The notes under the pieces are model-generated. The model searched no databases, was not told the origin of the DNA, and saw only the letters and a list, made by a program, of their open reading frames with translations. A stretch of 6,746 bases of DNA from Candidatus Desantisiibacteriota bacterium (lineage in GTDB: Bacteria; JACRDZ01): assembly GCA_016209155.1 (NCBI GenBank), contig JACQWU010000203.1:1-6746 (forward strand), given 5' to 3'. This document shows, in pieces, positions 1 to 6,670 of this stretch. Position 1 is the stretch's first letter; each line of letters begins with the position of its first letter. The position numbers and the translations under genes were made by a program.

Positions 1-1305
1 CTTACCGGTGAGCTTGATCTTGATTCAATGCCATGGGCAAAAAGGAGTATCTCTATTTCTAATTTTTCGCAGGGCAACGCTTCTTCCGAAGCTGTTAGAG
101 TGTCTATACGTAAAGTTTCAGATATTATAAAAAAAGATGATCTGGTAAGAGTTACCAAAAGAAAAAGCAAAAAAAATCCCCTGGCATTAAACTTAATCCA
201 GGAACAGCTTGTGCAGGGGGCTTTATTATGTATTGATGCGCAGACCGGATATATTAAAGCTATGGTAGGAGGATATGATTTCCGGATGACACCTTTTAAC
301 AGAGCATATCAGGCATGGCGTCAGCCGGGTTCTGCTTTTAAACCTTTTATTTATACTGCGGCCATTGATAATAAAATAATTACACCTTCCAGTATTATTT
401 TTGACGCGCCTGTTTCCTATGTTCAGTTTAGAACATGGAAAAAGAAAAAGCTTGTTAATGTTTTATGGACTCCTGCCAATTATCATAAAACTTATAACGG
501 TGATGTTACCGCAAGATACGCTCTGGCATATTCCTTAAATATTCCGGCTATAAAAGTTTTAGAAAGAACCGGAGCGGATAAAGTAATTAGTTATGCTCAT
601 AAAGCAGGACTTACTTCTATAAATAATAAAAATTTATCGCTTGCACTTGGAACCTCAGAAGTAACACTCTTGAGTTTAACCTCAGCTTTTAGCATTTTTG
701 CAAATCAGGGGATTAAAGTTACACCTATCGCAATCCGTTATATAGAAGGAAATAATGGCAGTGTACTTGCGCAATATACTCCCGTAGAAACACCGGTTTT
801 AAATGAAAATACCGCATATATTATGGCAAGCATGATGGAAAGTGTGGTAAAATTTGGTACGGCCAAAAAAGTCAAAGCATTAAACCGTCCTGTTGCAGGC
901 AAAACAGGAACTACTGACCGTGCTGTAGATGCATGGTTTATAGGTTTTACTCCTGAAATAATAACAGGTATGTATGTCGGCCTTGATGACCGCACATCAA
1001 TGGGACAGCATGCATCAGGAGAAGAGCTGGTGGTACCTTACTGGACAGAATTTATGCTCGAAGCTGTAAAAGATATGCCTTACAGTTCTTTTACTGCTCC
1101 GGACGGACTCACTTTTGCCGATGTCGACCCTCAAACAGGTCTTATAGCCGCATCAGCATGCAATACTGTTAATCCGGAAGTGTTTTTAAAAGGGACAGAA
1201 CCTAAAACATTATGCCGCCATAAGGAACGCAATCTGCTGGATAATAAAACAAAATTTACTCTTTCTTCTTTTAAAAAAAATACCGAGGAAAAAGAAAATA
1301 ATTGA
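1..1305 (+). CDS. Class A penicillin-binding protein (PBP1A-like), 3' part with complete transpeptidase domain; 5' end outside window
   Basis: This is the C-terminal part of a bifunctional peptidoglycan synthase. Such proteins polymerise glycan strands and cross-link stem peptides on the outer face of the inner membrane. The reading frame is open from base 1, so the ATG at 28 is internal; the glycosyltransferase domain and membrane anchor must lie upstream. Bases 1 to about 200 encode a linker/OB-like segment, followed by the penicillin-binding transpeptidase domain. All three active-site motifs are visible: SAFK (catalytic serine, bases 331-342) in the context RQPGSAFKPF, SLN at 532-540 and KTGTT from 901. 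Other family hallmarks are MVGGYDF and FNRAYQ before the serine, LALGTSEVTLL, and DAWFIGFTP after KTG. The tail has two cysteines (codons near 1159 and 1213) in the region where PBP1A proteins often carry a cysteine pair, then a Lys/Glu-rich end. The gene ends in TGA 12 bases before the recombinase gene, which suggests co-transcription. I see no defect. PBP1A versus another class A PBP cannot be settled without the N-terminus. Confidence 0.96.
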   Translation, partial: LTGELDLDSMPWAKRSISISNFSQGNASSEAVRVSIRKVSDIIKKDDLVRVTKRKSKKNPLALNLIQEQLVQGALLCIDAQTGYIKAMVGGYDFRMTPFNRAYQAWRQPGSAFKPFIYTAAIDNKIITPSSIIFDAPVSYVQFRTWKKKKLVNVLWTPANYHKTYNGDVTARYALAYSLNIPAIKVLERTGADKVISYAHKAGLTSINNKNLSLALGTSEVTLLSLTSAFSIFANQGIKVTPIAIRYIEGNNGSVLAQYTPVETPVLNENTAYIMASMMESVVKFGTAKKVKALNRPVAGKTGTTDRAVDAWFIGFTPEIITGMYVGLDDRTSMGQHASGEELVVPYWTEFMLEAVKDMPYSSFTAPDGLTFADVDPQTGLIAASACNTVNPEVFLKGTEPKTLCRHKERNLLDNKTKFTLSSFKKNTEEKENN

Positions 1306-1317
1306 AGGTATAAAAAA

Positions 1318-2175
1318 ATGAATCTTATCACTGCGATAGATAATTTTTTAATATGCTTAAAGGTTGAACGTAACGCTTCTCCCAATACTATTTCGAGTTA
1401 TGCTATTGATCTAAAGCAGTTTTACGGATGGATCGGCAAAGAAAAAAATATTGAAGATATTGAAACGGAAGATATAAGAAATTATATGGAATTTTTATAT
1501 AATAGAAACATTAAAGAAACTTCCATGCGCCGTAAAATTGCCTGTTTACAGTCTTTTTTTACTTTTCTTATTAAAAGAGACAGAGCTATTATTGAATTAT
1601 TTTTTGCGACCGGCATCCGCATAAGTGAATTATGTAATTTATCCCTCCATGATATTCAAATGGGGGAAAAAGTTATAAAAGTTATGGGCAAAGGATCAAA
1701 AGAAAGAATTATTTCTTTTGATAACAAAAAAACTGTACTTGCGATAGAAAATTATCTTGAGTTGCGCAGTAAGATTAATACTGCAAGTAAAAATATTTTT
1801 TTGAACAGATTCCATAAGGGTATCAGTCCGCGTGCTATACAAAAATTATTTCAAGTTTATCTTAAAAAAGCCGGGATAGACAAACATGCAACTCCGCATT
1901 CGCTTCGTCATACTATGGCTACAATGCTTCTTGAAAATGGAGCGGATATCAGGTCGGTACAGGAAATATTGGGACACAGGTCAGTTGCGACAACACAAAT
2001 TTATACCGAAGTATCTATCTTAAGACAAAAAGAAGTAATAAAAAAACACCATCAGAGAGATCATTTGAGCGCATGTTTTATACCTGCGGATTTTATTGGT
2101 CCAAATTTATCAATAAAAAATAAAAATGGAGGAAAATCGTATCATGATAAAAGAAAGTATAAAAAAAGTAGTTGA
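1318..2175 (+). CDS. XerC/XerD-like tyrosine recombinase with an internal deletion between its two domains and an extended C-terminus (possibly non-functional)
   Basis: Xer recombinases resolve chromosome dimers at dif sites. Residues 1-86 match the N-terminal SAM-like DNA-binding domain (NTISSYAIDL; RRKIACLQSFFTFLIK). Residues 87-245 match the catalytic domain: R101 in ATGIRISEL, K125 in MGKGSKER, H194 and R197 in HSLRH, H220 in LGH, and Y229 in TQIYTEV, which is the complete R-K-H-R-H-Y set with near-normal spacing. Measured against E. coli XerD as I recall it (298 residues, first catalytic Arg at 148), about 45 residues are missing at the junction near residues 86-87 (base 1576). These are the interdomain linker and the first catalytic-domain helix. 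The frame is kept, so the ORF is 285 residues. The C-terminus runs about 37 residues past the usual end and overlaps trpD by 32 bases. The start has a GAAGG Shine-Dalgarno element (1304-1308) nine bases upstream, overlapping the PBP stop. XerC versus XerD is not resolved. The family assignment is firm; activity is doubtful. Confidence 0.9.
   Translation: MNLITAIDNFLICLKVERNASPNTISSYAIDLKQFYGWIGKEKNIEDIETEDIRNYMEFLYNRNIKETSMRRKIACLQSFFTFLIKRDRAIIELFFATGIRISELCNLSLHDIQMGEKVIKVMGKGSKERIISFDNKKTVLAIENYLELRSKINTASKNIFLNRFHKGISPRAIQKLFQVYLKKAGIDKHATPHSLRHTMATMLLENGADIRSVQEILGHRSVATTQIYTEVSILRQKEVIKKHHQRDHLSACFIPADFIGPNLSIKNKNGGKSYHDKRKYKKSS
2128..2133 (+). promoter_or_regulatory. Shine-Dalgarno sequence of trpD
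   Basis: GGAGGA lies ten bases before the ATG at 2144 and inside the 3' end of the recombinase ORF. It decides the start of trpD. An earlier in-frame ATG at 2126 shares its G with this element and would have no ribosome binding site of its own at a proper distance. Confidence 0.75.
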
Positions 2176-3172
2176 AAGACTGGATTTAACAAGAGAAGAA
2201 GCCCATTCAACAATGTTGTCTATTATGAATGGAGAAGCAACCCCTGCTCAAATCGCAAGTTTTATTACCGCACTGCGTATGAAAGGTGAAACTATTGATG
2301 AAATTACAGGTTGTGCTTTTGCCATGCGCGAAAAATCAGTTCATATAAAAGTTATAAGAAAAACGCTTGTGGATACATGCGGCACGGGCGGGGACGGCGG
2401 AAAAACCTTTAATATTTCAACAGCAAGCGCACTGGTAGTTGCCGGTTGCGAGCTTACTGTCGCTAAACACGGGAATAAGGCAGTATCCAGCGAATGCGGT
2501 AGTGCTGATGTATTGGAAGCTCTCGGTGTTAATATAAAAATTGAACCTCAAAAAGTTGAACAATGTATAAATACAATTGGTATAGGATTTATGTTTGCGC
2601 CATCCTTTCACAGTGCGATGAAGCATGCGGTACTACCAAGAAAGGAAATAGGTATCCGAACTGTTTTCAATATTTTAGGGCCCTTAACCAATCCGGCCGG
2701 GGCAAGCGCGCAAGTAGTGGGAGTATATGACGGTGATCTCACTGAAAAACTATGCGGAGTATTAAATAATCTTGGTGTTAATCATGCTTTTGTTGTTCAT
2801 GGAGAAGATGGATTGGATGAAATCAGTATCTGCGCAAATACAAAAATTTCAGAATTAAAAGACAGCATGATAAACACATATTCTTTTAATCCTGAAGATT
2901 TTGGTATTAAAAAAGTACTTCTCTCTCAAATAAACGGTGGTACACCACAGCAAAATAAAGAAATTATTAAAAGTATACTCGACGGTAAAAAAGGCCCTCA
3001 CAGAAATATTGTTGTTTTAAATGCTGCTTTTGCTCTGGTGGCAGGGGATGCAGCAAAAGACATAAAAAATGGAATTAAACTGGCTGAAGAAAGCATTGAT
3101 TCAGGTAATGCAAAACGTAAACTCGATGAGATTGTGAAATTTAGTAATGAGATTGCACTTAATGATGATTAG
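2144..3172 (+). CDS. trpD: Anthranilate phosphoribosyltransferase
   Basis: TrpD transfers the phosphoribosyl group of PRPP to anthranilate, the second step of tryptophan synthesis from chorismate, in the cytoplasm. The 342-residue product has the usual family length. The N-terminal helical domain contains GEATPAQIASF and LRMKGET. The PRPP/Mg-binding glycine loop GTGGD is at residues 80-84 (bases 2381-2395), followed by TFNIST. KHGNKAVSS is at 108-116, then CGSADVLEALG. The anthranilate-site region includes GFMFAPSFHSAMKHA and the conserved Arg of PRKEIGIRT, followed by FNILGPLTNPAG. The acidic metal-binding pair is in DGLDE at 222-226. I see no frameshift or missing key residue. The ATG at 2144 is chosen because it follows GGAGGA and because MIKESIKKV matches typical TrpD starts; the ATG at 2126 would add six unconserved residues. 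The gene starts inside the recombinase ORF in another frame, so translational coupling is possible. No other trp gene is in the window. Confidence 0.97.
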   Translation: MIKESIKKVVERLDLTREEAHSTMLSIMNGEATPAQIASFITALRMKGETIDEITGCAFAMREKSVHIKVIRKTLVDTCGTGGDGGKTFNISTASALVVAGCELTVAKHGNKAVSSECGSADVLEALGVNIKIEPQKVEQCINTIGIGFMFAPSFHSAMKHAVLPRKEIGIRTVFNILGPLTNPAGASAQVVGVYDGDLTEKLCGVLNNLGVNHAFVVHGEDGLDEISICANTKISELKDSMINTYSFNPEDFGIKKVLLSQINGGTPQQNKEIIKSILDGKKGPHRNIVVLNAAFALVAGDAAKDIKNGIKLAEESIDSGNAKRKLDEIVKFSNEIALNDD

Positions 3173-3268: not shown

Positions 3269-6200
3269 TCACCATACTGTCTCCGATAAAACTTTGAAAT
3301 ATTTTTCTGTAATTTCTCGATATTCGACAGGGATATATTCAAGCTGTATATCTGGTTTTTCATCAAAAATTTTCTTTTTTATTGTTGTTAAATCTTTTGG
3401 TAATTCCTGCGGGTATGTTGTTTTTTCATATTCTTTAGCTTTTTCCGCCTGGCGGTTTTTATCATATTCATCTTTATTCTGAAGAGATTTCTGCGCGTCC
3501 AATAAACGCGAAAGAATTTTATTTTGTTTTTTAGTTAATTCTACCCCTATATCTTTATTTTTTATTTTTTCCCCTGCTTCTTCCATCAGATTTTTAACAT
3601 CATCTAATTTCCCCATCATACTACTCATATTATTATATTCGTTTATCAACTGGTCCAGCATTTCTCCCAATTTTTTTTGTTCATATGCCATTTTTTCCAG
3701 TTGCGCCATCTGCTCCGATGAAATAGTTCCCTGCTTTTCAATTTGCTTACGGAGCATTTCCGTTAAATCGTTCAAATTCTGCTGCTCATTAGTTAAATTC
3801 TCCAGCTGATCCATTATTTCTGATGCCTGTCCCTTTGACATTTCTTTTTTCATCATTTCTGAGGTTTTTAAAAATTCAGCAATTATTATATTTAATTCCG
3901 TCAAAACTTCCTGTGTTTCGGGGATAGCCTTAAATAGATCATTAGCACCTATGGTTATTTTAAGGTCAGACATTTTTTTCGAGATATCTTCAAGTTTTAA
4001 TCCCGAATTAATTTTAACCTTTGGTGATATTTTTGCAATAGCGATCAGGACTTGAGCAAGATTATTTACCCCTTCACTTAAATACATTTCTTTCACAGCA
4101 TATTCGTCTAAAATATTTTCTTCATCCAATGTAAAAACTTTGCCCTGATTTGCTTTTTGCTGTATTCCAAGCAGGATTTGTTCTTCCTGATGAGAAATGA
4201 AAAGACCGTTATAAATCACAGATTGAATCATACTTAACAATTCTTTATTAGTATTTTTTCTCATTTTATTTTTCAATTTAATCAGCTGGCTTGCTGCTTC
4301 GGATAGATTTTTAGATGCCTTTTTTGATTCCTCCTGCGCATTATCAAACTTTTTTTTATCCATCGAATTTTCAACATTTTTCATATTACTTATAGTGCCG
4401 CTGTCTTTAAGTTTATGGCTTATTTCTTCAAGATCTTTACTTATCTCAGGATTATTCTTTTTCATATTTTCAGCAAGCTCTGAAATATCTTCCGTGAGCT
4501 TCTCTGTTTCTCTCCTGATTTGCTCCTGTTTTACCAATATATCATTCATTTCAGTTTTATTTAAATCTTTAGCATCCTTATTGCTATTTTTTTCCAATTC
4601 ATCTGTTAATTTCCTCTGCCTTTCTTCAAGCTCTTTAGCTTCAGAGCTCAGCGCTTCAAGCTTCCGCTGGTCGCGTGTACGTTTTAAAAGTTCTATTGTG
4701 TAATCAAGTTTTTTTATTAATTTATCTTGAGTGAATTCTGCATCCAATAAATCCTTTTTCTTCTCGTCAATATCTATTTTTTTTATACTTTCATTTAATT
4801 TCTGTAAAATATTTTTCATTTCCTCCGTCATGACTTCATTTAATAATTTCTGTATCTCTATAACTTTTTCTGCCATCTCCTGCTTTACAAGCAAATTTTT
4901 TTCCAGTTCTTTTGTGTTTTTTTCGATTTCCTGAATTACGGATTTCATTTTCTCCATGCTGTTTTTATGCAAATTTTTAATCTGATTTATTTCATTATCT
5001 TTATTCCAATCAGATTTATTTCCCTGTTCAATATTTTTATTTGCCTCCTCCATTCGCATACGCAGATGTTCACTCTCTTCCTTAATACTCTCAAGTTCAT
5101 TAATTTTTTTGTCATGTTCCTGCTCTTTTTCCTGATATATCTCATAAAGAGAAGGGAAGCTTATATAATGAACTTCTGATAATCCCTGTTTAGGCCCATT
5201 TACAGTATCATTATCCCATGCTTCAAGATAATACTGAATCATATATCCGGGTAATAATTTTTCCGGATTAAGGTCCCATAAATAATCATAAAAAATAGAT
5301 GTCTTTGTTGTATTAAATTGAGCCAGCAGAACAGTCTTTTCTCCTGTCCGTCCAATTGTAAAATATTTCAATAAAAGCTTTTTTACTCCATAGTCATCTG
5401 CTGCGCTTATGGATAAGTTCACTTTCATATCATTTGAAATTTTTTCATTTGTTCCGGGCAGAAGAATATCCACTTTTGGCGGAAAATCCTTATCAATCTC
5501 AATATTGTATTTTGCAGGATTTATATTTTTCCCCCCGCCGCTTGTAGTTAACGAAAAAAAATACCTGTCAGGTTTATTGATCTTTATATTTCCGCTAATT
5601 TTTGTCGATTCAAATATCCTCATTAAAATATTCTCCTTACCTGAATCAAACATAAGCTTTGCGTCTTTTAAAGGTTTGTCGGAATTAGCTTCTATTTTTA
5701 CCAAAGTCCCTGGTAATGCTTTAATATCTCCCAAATTATCATTTACTACTCTTGGACTTTGCCCGGTATATGAAGGATAATAATAGGTCTTTTTTATATC
5801 ACTTATTATGGGTTCCTGTGTAATGCTTATAATGCCCGTCTTTGAACGGAATTGGGAAGCTTCAACATAAAAATAAGTATCCATCTGAACATTTTTAAAA
5901 GTATAATCTGTCTGCCCGAAAGATGGGACTGAAATTTTTTCCAGCGCATAAAGAAAATCAGGTTTTACTCCTGTAAAGATGACTGCCTCCTGCGGTATTT
6001 TTCCATAAAAAACAATATTTATTGTTATAGAAGAATTTTTATTCACCTGAATTTTTTGAGGCATAATTCGAATCATAGTCCTGTCCTGAAAATATCGATT
6101 GGATTTAAATTCATAAAAATTAATCATTGTATTAGCCAATGAATCGGGGAAAAAAGCTGTCCATAAAAGAAAAAATATTAAAAAAACCGTAAAAACATAA

Positions 6201-6670
6201 AATTTCTTTTTAAGCAAATATGTATCTAAAATTTTAGCCGGATTAATTTTATCCAAAACATTACTGGTATTCAAAAGAAGAGAATGAATTAAATCCTCAG
6301 AATAACCATATGTTTTTGTATAAAGATTATAATCCATACAAAATTCAAGACTGCTTACCAGCTGATTATGAGTAAATGGAATTTGACCTTCAATATAAAC
6401 TGCAAGTTTTCTAAAATTTTTTGTTTTGCTCCATATGCTAAATATTGTTAATATAAAAGAAATAGTATTTAAACTTAAAAGAATCCAAAAAGAATGCTTT
6501 TTATAATCAAAGAAAAAATAATCTATAAAAACATATGTCAGAATGGAAATTATTAAAATTGTTCCCTGCTGACATAGTCCTTCAATCAGAATAAGAGACT
6601 GCTGATAAAGCCTGAATCGCTTTATCCACCTGTTAATATTCAAATATAAATTTTCTATTATGGCTGACAT
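3269..6670 (-). CDS. Large membrane-anchored coiled-coil protein of DUF4175 type
   Basis: The function is unknown. The 1133-residue protein resembles, from memory, the long DUF4175-like proteins of Planctomycetes, Bacteroidetes and candidate diderm phyla, often encoded near MoxR ATPase, DUF58 and BatA-like genes. Hydrophobic segments at about 34-54, 60-80 and 157-174 are likely membrane helices; with the N-terminus inside, the remainder would face the periplasm. Residues 175-505 look beta-rich, with YYYPSYTG near 296-302, DDYGVKKL near 425-432 and YYLEAWDNDTVNGPK near 480-494. From 508 to about 800 runs a Lys/Glu-rich heptad-like coiled coil. A helical region (820-940) and a Gln/Met-rich C-terminal module follow, with ILSRLLDAQKS at 1052-1062 and the ending EYREITEKYFKVLSE. 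The ATG is preceded by AGGA (6680-6683 on the minus strand) with nine bases of spacing, and overlaps the stop of the upstream gene as TAATG. The frame is uninterrupted. The gene converges with trpD. Existence of the gene is near certain; the family name is moderately certain. Confidence 0.88.
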   Translation of the reverse strand: MSAIIENLYLNINRWIKRFRLYQQSLILIEGLCQQGTILIISILTYVFIDYFFFDYKKHSFWILLSLNTISFILTIFSIWSKTKNFRKLAVYIEGQIPFTHNQLVSSLEFCMDYNLYTKTYGYSEDLIHSLLLNTSNVLDKINPAKILDTYLLKKKFYVFTVFLIFFLLWTAFFPDSLANTMINFYEFKSNRYFQDRTMIRIMPQKIQVNKNSSITINIVFYGKIPQEAVIFTGVKPDFLYALEKISVPSFGQTDYTFKNVQMDTYFYVEASQFRSKTGIISITQEPIISDIKKTYYYPSYTGQSPRVVNDNLGDIKALPGTLVKIEANSDKPLKDAKLMFDSGKENILMRIFESTKISGNIKINKPDRYFFSLTTSGGGKNINPAKYNIEIDKDFPPKVDILLPGTNEKISNDMKVNLSISAADDYGVKKLLLKYFTIGRTGEKTVLLAQFNTTKTSIFYDYLWDLNPEKLLPGYMIQYYLEAWDNDTVNGPKQGLSEVHYISFPSLYEIYQEKEQEHDKKINELESIKEESEHLRMRMEEANKNIEQGNKSDWNKDNEINQIKNLHKNSMEKMKSVIQEIEKNTKELEKNLLVKQEMAEKVIEIQKLLNEVMTEEMKNILQKLNESIKKIDIDEKKKDLLDAEFTQDKLIKKLDYTIELLKRTRDQRKLEALSSEAKELEERQRKLTDELEKNSNKDAKDLNKTEMNDILVKQEQIRRETEKLTEDISELAENMKKNNPEISKDLEEISHKLKDSGTISNMKNVENSMDKKKFDNAQEESKKASKNLSEAASQLIKLKNKMRKNTNKELLSMIQSVIYNGLFISHQEEQILLGIQQKANQGKVFTLDEENILDEYAVKEMYLSEGVNNLAQVLIAIAKISPKVKINSGLKLEDISKKMSDLKITIGANDLFKAIPETQEVLTELNIIIAEFLKTSEMMKKEMSKGQASEIMDQLENLTNEQQNLNDLTEMLRKQIEKQGTISSEQMAQLEKMAYEQKKLGEMLDQLINEYNNMSSMMGKLDDVKNLMEEAGEKIKNKDIGVELTKKQNKILSRLLDAQKSLQNKDEYDKNRQAEKAKEYEKTTYPQELPKDLTTIKKKIFDEKPDIQLEYIPVEYREITEKYFKVLSETVW

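Follow-up and report, generated by a model that had tools for sequence, protein, structure and literature searches.

An in-frame 198-nt deletion in a XerC/D-type recombinase gene, probably an error of a draft assembly

Xer recombinases clamp DNA between two domains, and rotation of the N-terminal domain about the linker that joins them is thought to open this clamp (PMC5241119, PMC3646895). The linker of Xer proteins in general comprises about 15–20 residues (PMC3646895), and that of XerH comprises 7 residues (PMC5241119). In the gene described here, the assembled sequence lacks the linker altogether, together with part of what surrounds it. As judged from the sequence, such a compact Xer is most likely not real, and the reading that we prefer, to which a probability of about 0.8 can be assigned, is that of an ordinary XerC/D-type gene from which 198 bp were lost by assembly error.

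The Xer gene and its domain junction

The window, that is, the whole stretch of DNA that was analysed (6746 bp), is an entire contig (C56) of a draft genome of 3.08 Mb, which is distributed over 352 contigs and has a completeness estimate of 78.8%. The features of the window, including the parts of the Xer open reading frame, are the following:

1..1305, plus strand: PBP1A-family penicillin-binding protein, truncated at the contig start, with a continuous transpeptidase part
1318..2175, plus strand: XerC/D-type tyrosine recombinase open reading frame, 285 aa as assembled, 198 nt shorter than in relatives
1318..1575, plus strand: N-terminal DNA-binding (SAM-like) domain of Xer, complete, ending in SFFTFLIK (PF02899; TIGR02225 positions 2-79)
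1573..1578, plus strand: junction, 198 nt (66 codons) missing relative to all four relatives (alignments, TIGR02225)
1576..2061, plus strand: catalytic domain from the RDRAI helix onward, first helix absent (Pfam, TIGR02225, alignment of the relatives)
2062..2175, plus strand: C-terminal extension of about 35 residues, absent from relatives, overlapping the trpD start by 32 nt (alignment, list of open reading frames)
2144..3172, plus strand: trpD, anthranilate phosphoribosyltransferase, covering TIGR01245 in full
3269-6670, minus strand: protein of 1133 residues without a Pfam or NCBIfam match

The product of 3269-6670 recurs at nearly full length, with 25-32% identity, in the nearest relatives from the same phylum (G001 and G002) and in G003, and is a protein conserved in this phylum. 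The extension at 2062-2175, which runs past the end of the relatives' Xer, possibly represents another sequence error or a lost stop.

The Pfam search assigned residues 7-87 to Phage_int_SAM_1 (PF02899, profile 1-82 of 83, E 1.4e-17), and the match to Phage_integrase opens at profile position 22, corresponding to residue 86. The residues R101, K125, H194, R197, H220 and Y229 are all retained, without variation in the four-sequence alignment, and are spaced by 24, 69, 3, 23 and 9 residues in the order R-K-H-R-H-Y. Both this order and spacing and the N-terminal SAM-like domain are those of XerC/XerD-type recombinases; the linker and the first catalytic-domain helix that lie between the two domains in this type are absent, probably through loss in the assembly. 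The scores obtained with TIGR02224 (239.2 bits) and TIGR02225 (228.3 bits) are below the curated cut-offs of 335.15 and 329.6, respectively.

At the junction, the end of the N-terminal domain (1575) directly abuts RDRAIIELFFATGIRISEL. The XerD profile TIGR02225 matches 1342-1575 with its positions 2-79 and 1576-2058 with its positions 125-289, 45 profile positions (80-124) being skipped between adjacent bases. Compared with the Xer proteins of G001 (C119) and G002 (C14) and of the MAGs JAKQBV010000378.1 and MWCD01000121.1 (L035 and L036), the gap measures exactly 66 residues (198 nt) in all four cases. The gap relative to these proteins is larger than that relative to the profile because, in this clade, about 20 extra residues that are not found in XerD separate the first catalytic helix from RDRAI. 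The missing 66 residues comprise the terminal part of the last N-domain helix, then the linker and the first catalytic helix (in G001, for instance, LSIQEIEALLKIP, which is absent from the window ORF), and also the clade-typical loop of about 20 residues; the loss therefore exceeds a hinge alone. The sequence continues across the junction without an N-run. At the right edge of the gap, the relatives encode IRNRA, VRDKA or IRDKA, and no KRD is found at the left edge.

The junction had been described correctly in the initial annotation, which stated that the N-terminal domain runs directly into the RDRAI motif, that about 45 residues are missing, that all catalytic residues are kept and that the reading frame is preserved; the profile and the catalytic residues bear this out, 198 nt being 66 codons, and the alignment with the closest relatives that it had proposed extends the loss to 66 residues. 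The same alignment revealed no linker displaced elsewhere inside the protein. When the missing piece of G001 was used as a query, neither a second copy nor a detached linker piece was detected in the rest of the assembly, and the second Xer that had also been suggested as worth seeking was not found, since the assembly yielded no XerC/D-like gene beyond the mobile-element recombinases of C294 and other integrases. The C294 locus (L121, 421-3476, minus strand) contains three tyrosine recombinases in a row, resembling a recombinase-in-trio arrangement, two of which are split between frames.

On one further reading, the gene encodes a working compact Xer, restricted to one lineage, in which the N-terminal domain is joined directly to a catalytic domain that has no first helix, with no linker in between; such a protein, if real, would call into question whether hinging of the two domains is required for clamping DNA. 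The retention of the frame and of every catalytic residue is compatible with this reading, as is the variation in linker length among known Xer proteins (PMC5241119, PMC3646895). It is nevertheless highly improbable, given that the first catalytic-domain helix, present in four of four relatives, is gone as well. Moreover, when 386 genomes were searched with a 67-residue query, no other compact variant was matched end to end across the junction among the matches listed: only this genome gave such a match, and the others, which lie in reading frames of ordinary length, were one-sided or extended slightly into the first catalytic helix. The structure prediction called for in the initial annotation, run with the four-sequence alignment, gave a low-confidence model (pLDDT 61.2, pTM 0.41) that draws a single helix through the junction at residues 67-98, which would leave no hinge; at this confidence, the model does not discriminate between the readings.

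Sharp deletions in other conserved genes

A control sample of 81 stretches including the window (719 kb, about 23% of the genome) was compared with 498 kb of the relative G001, proteins being aligned with DNA in both directions. At least seven unrelated conserved genes besides Xer showed the same sharp loss between well-conserved flanks. Five of them (P-type ATPase, PorA-like, PpiC-like, MutL and RimO) carry presumptive names taken from our reading of the sequence, which is not the case for SecA, pyruvate phosphate dikinase or the window genes. The affected contigs (C3, C11, C32, C48, C50, C73 and C77) were sampled as L084, L092, L113, L129, L131, L193 and L197, and the deletions are these:

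C3, about 13839: presumed P-type ATPase, 140 nt, frameshift, flanks 77-78% identical
C50, about 3627: presumed pyruvate-ferredoxin oxidoreductase alpha (PorA-like), 140 nt, frameshift, flanks 84% and 58% identical
C77, about 9851: presumed PpiC-like isomerase, 113 nt, frameshift
C32, about 3760: presumed MutL, about 236-245 nt, frameshift, with a further 8 nt at 2934-2942 that change the frame
C73, about 1800: presumed RimO, about 90-100 nt, frameshift
C48: SecA, 39 nt, in frame, removing 13 residues (TGKGVHIITVNDY) of a conserved motif present in G001
C11, base 1548: pyruvate phosphate dikinase (ppdK), about 360 nt, profile positions 530 to 651 skipped, frame change

The frame is lost in six of the eight affected genes when Xer is counted, a share close to the two thirds that would be expected without selection, and no other decay was seen in these genes. 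Loss of SecA function would be expected to be lethal. The cut in pyruvate phosphate dikinase came from a separate family search, in which the gene was whole in G001, G002 and G003 and no second full copy was found. In the reverse comparison, the 498 kb of G001 yielded no frame-breaking deletion, and a single in-frame difference in length (L086/L159) is perhaps due to an insertion on the side of this genome; counted symmetrically, the comparison gives five affected genes against none in G001, which is a small count.

Some candidates were set aside. A 40-residue gap in SecA was dropped as a deletion because G002 is also without these residues; this gap is natural, and not every gap is therefore an error. 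A 28-nt frame change in an AAA-ATPase was left out as too divergent. RpoC, which was used as a control, showed no deletion at profile level, though its gene is split over two contigs.

Sharp, frame-blind deletions, as an artefact would produce them, were thus found in unrelated conserved genes, and they are rarer in the assembly of the relative. Ranging from about 8 to 360 nt, they suggest that the assembly is faulty in a systematic way. It is because such unrelated genes, secA, mutL and ppdK among them, show the same sharp cuts, mostly out of frame, that the deletion in Xer is read as an assembly error. The deletions in the other genes would then be joining errors arising in assembly or scaffolding, and that in Xer would belong to the third of frame-blind errors that happen to stay in frame.

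Reliability of the joins

The assembly is a scaffolded one, and short N-runs number 19 in 712 kb of it, versus one in 498 kb of G001. Several of them are flanked by identical residues (KKTP/KKTP, IIA/IIA, FISFSVI/FISFSVI), and since such repetition across the Ns means that overlapping ends were set apart, these joins are wrongly sized, which makes joins in this assembly unreliable. Examples of N-runs with repeated sides, where the true gap is an overlap, are L092:3102-3183, L101:1769-1874 and L110:2303-2313. The size errors, judged by eye from known protein motifs, are mostly of tens of bases and not of 200, so that they do not explain the exact joining error. Simple negative-gap scaffolding was therefore rejected as the full cause, accounting for the wrong joins only in part. 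A literature search on amplification chimeras returned nothing.

Evolved loss or assembly error, and comparison with known systems

Among the points against an assembly error are that the Xer deletion is in frame and that it carries no N-run. The main alternative is a real deletion in the organism or strain, which removed 198 bp, perhaps from between two short direct repeats, leaving a dead or dying Xer without linker and first catalytic helix; a true deletion would most likely give a dead enzyme. This was the leading idea of the initial annotation, which also listed an assembly collapse among its three alternatives. The continuity of the sequence, a break at RD/RD-like codons, and an assembly offering neither an intact copy or separate linker piece nor a XerC/D-like substitute are all in line with it, and a short repeat at the deletion edge, proposed in the initial annotation as AGAGA-like, would fit a real slippage deletion equally well. 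However, the rest of the catalytic domain is undecayed, with 64% identity to G001, and the equally sharp frame-breaking cuts in mutL, ppdK, porA and rimO, as well as the cut in the SecA motif, would all need to be real. An evolved loss and a non-recombining product are therefore considered unlikely, and of the earlier interpretation it is the assembly collapse that is retained.

With the deletion attributed to the assembly, the Xer of the cell is probably full-length and ordinary, and would work like other Xer proteins: the two domains would clamp DNA, the tyrosine would attack, and strand exchange would follow at a dif-like site. Enzymes of the XerC/XerD type act at a chromosomal dif site upon activation by FtsK. 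More generally, short deletions, both in-frame and frame-breaking, appear to be numerous in this assembly, and where one of its genes seems to have lost a domain or to be a pseudogene, this should not be taken for evolution without the reads.

For isolate genomes, it is well documented that assembly can give rise to spurious interrupted genes (PMC11017572). That study dealt with frameshifts and internal stops in isolates, its assessment extending neither to metagenome assemblies nor to deletions as large as these, and the present case is alike in that interrupted or shortened conserved genes would reflect assembly quality and not biology. As regards the protein, the best family scores are those against the XerC/XerD chromosome-dimer recombinases (TIGR02224 and TIGR02225), with which the window ORF has in common the SAM-like N-terminal domain and the R-K-H-R-H-Y catalytic domain, whereas it is without the 45 profile positions at the domain junction. 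Likewise, the Xer proteins of G001, G002 and both MAGs carry the 66 residues that the window ORF is without. Outside this segment, the N-terminal domain is 40-46% identical to those of the four relatives, and the catalytic domain is 57-64% identical to that of the G001 and G002 proteins and 42-47% identical to that of the MAG proteins.
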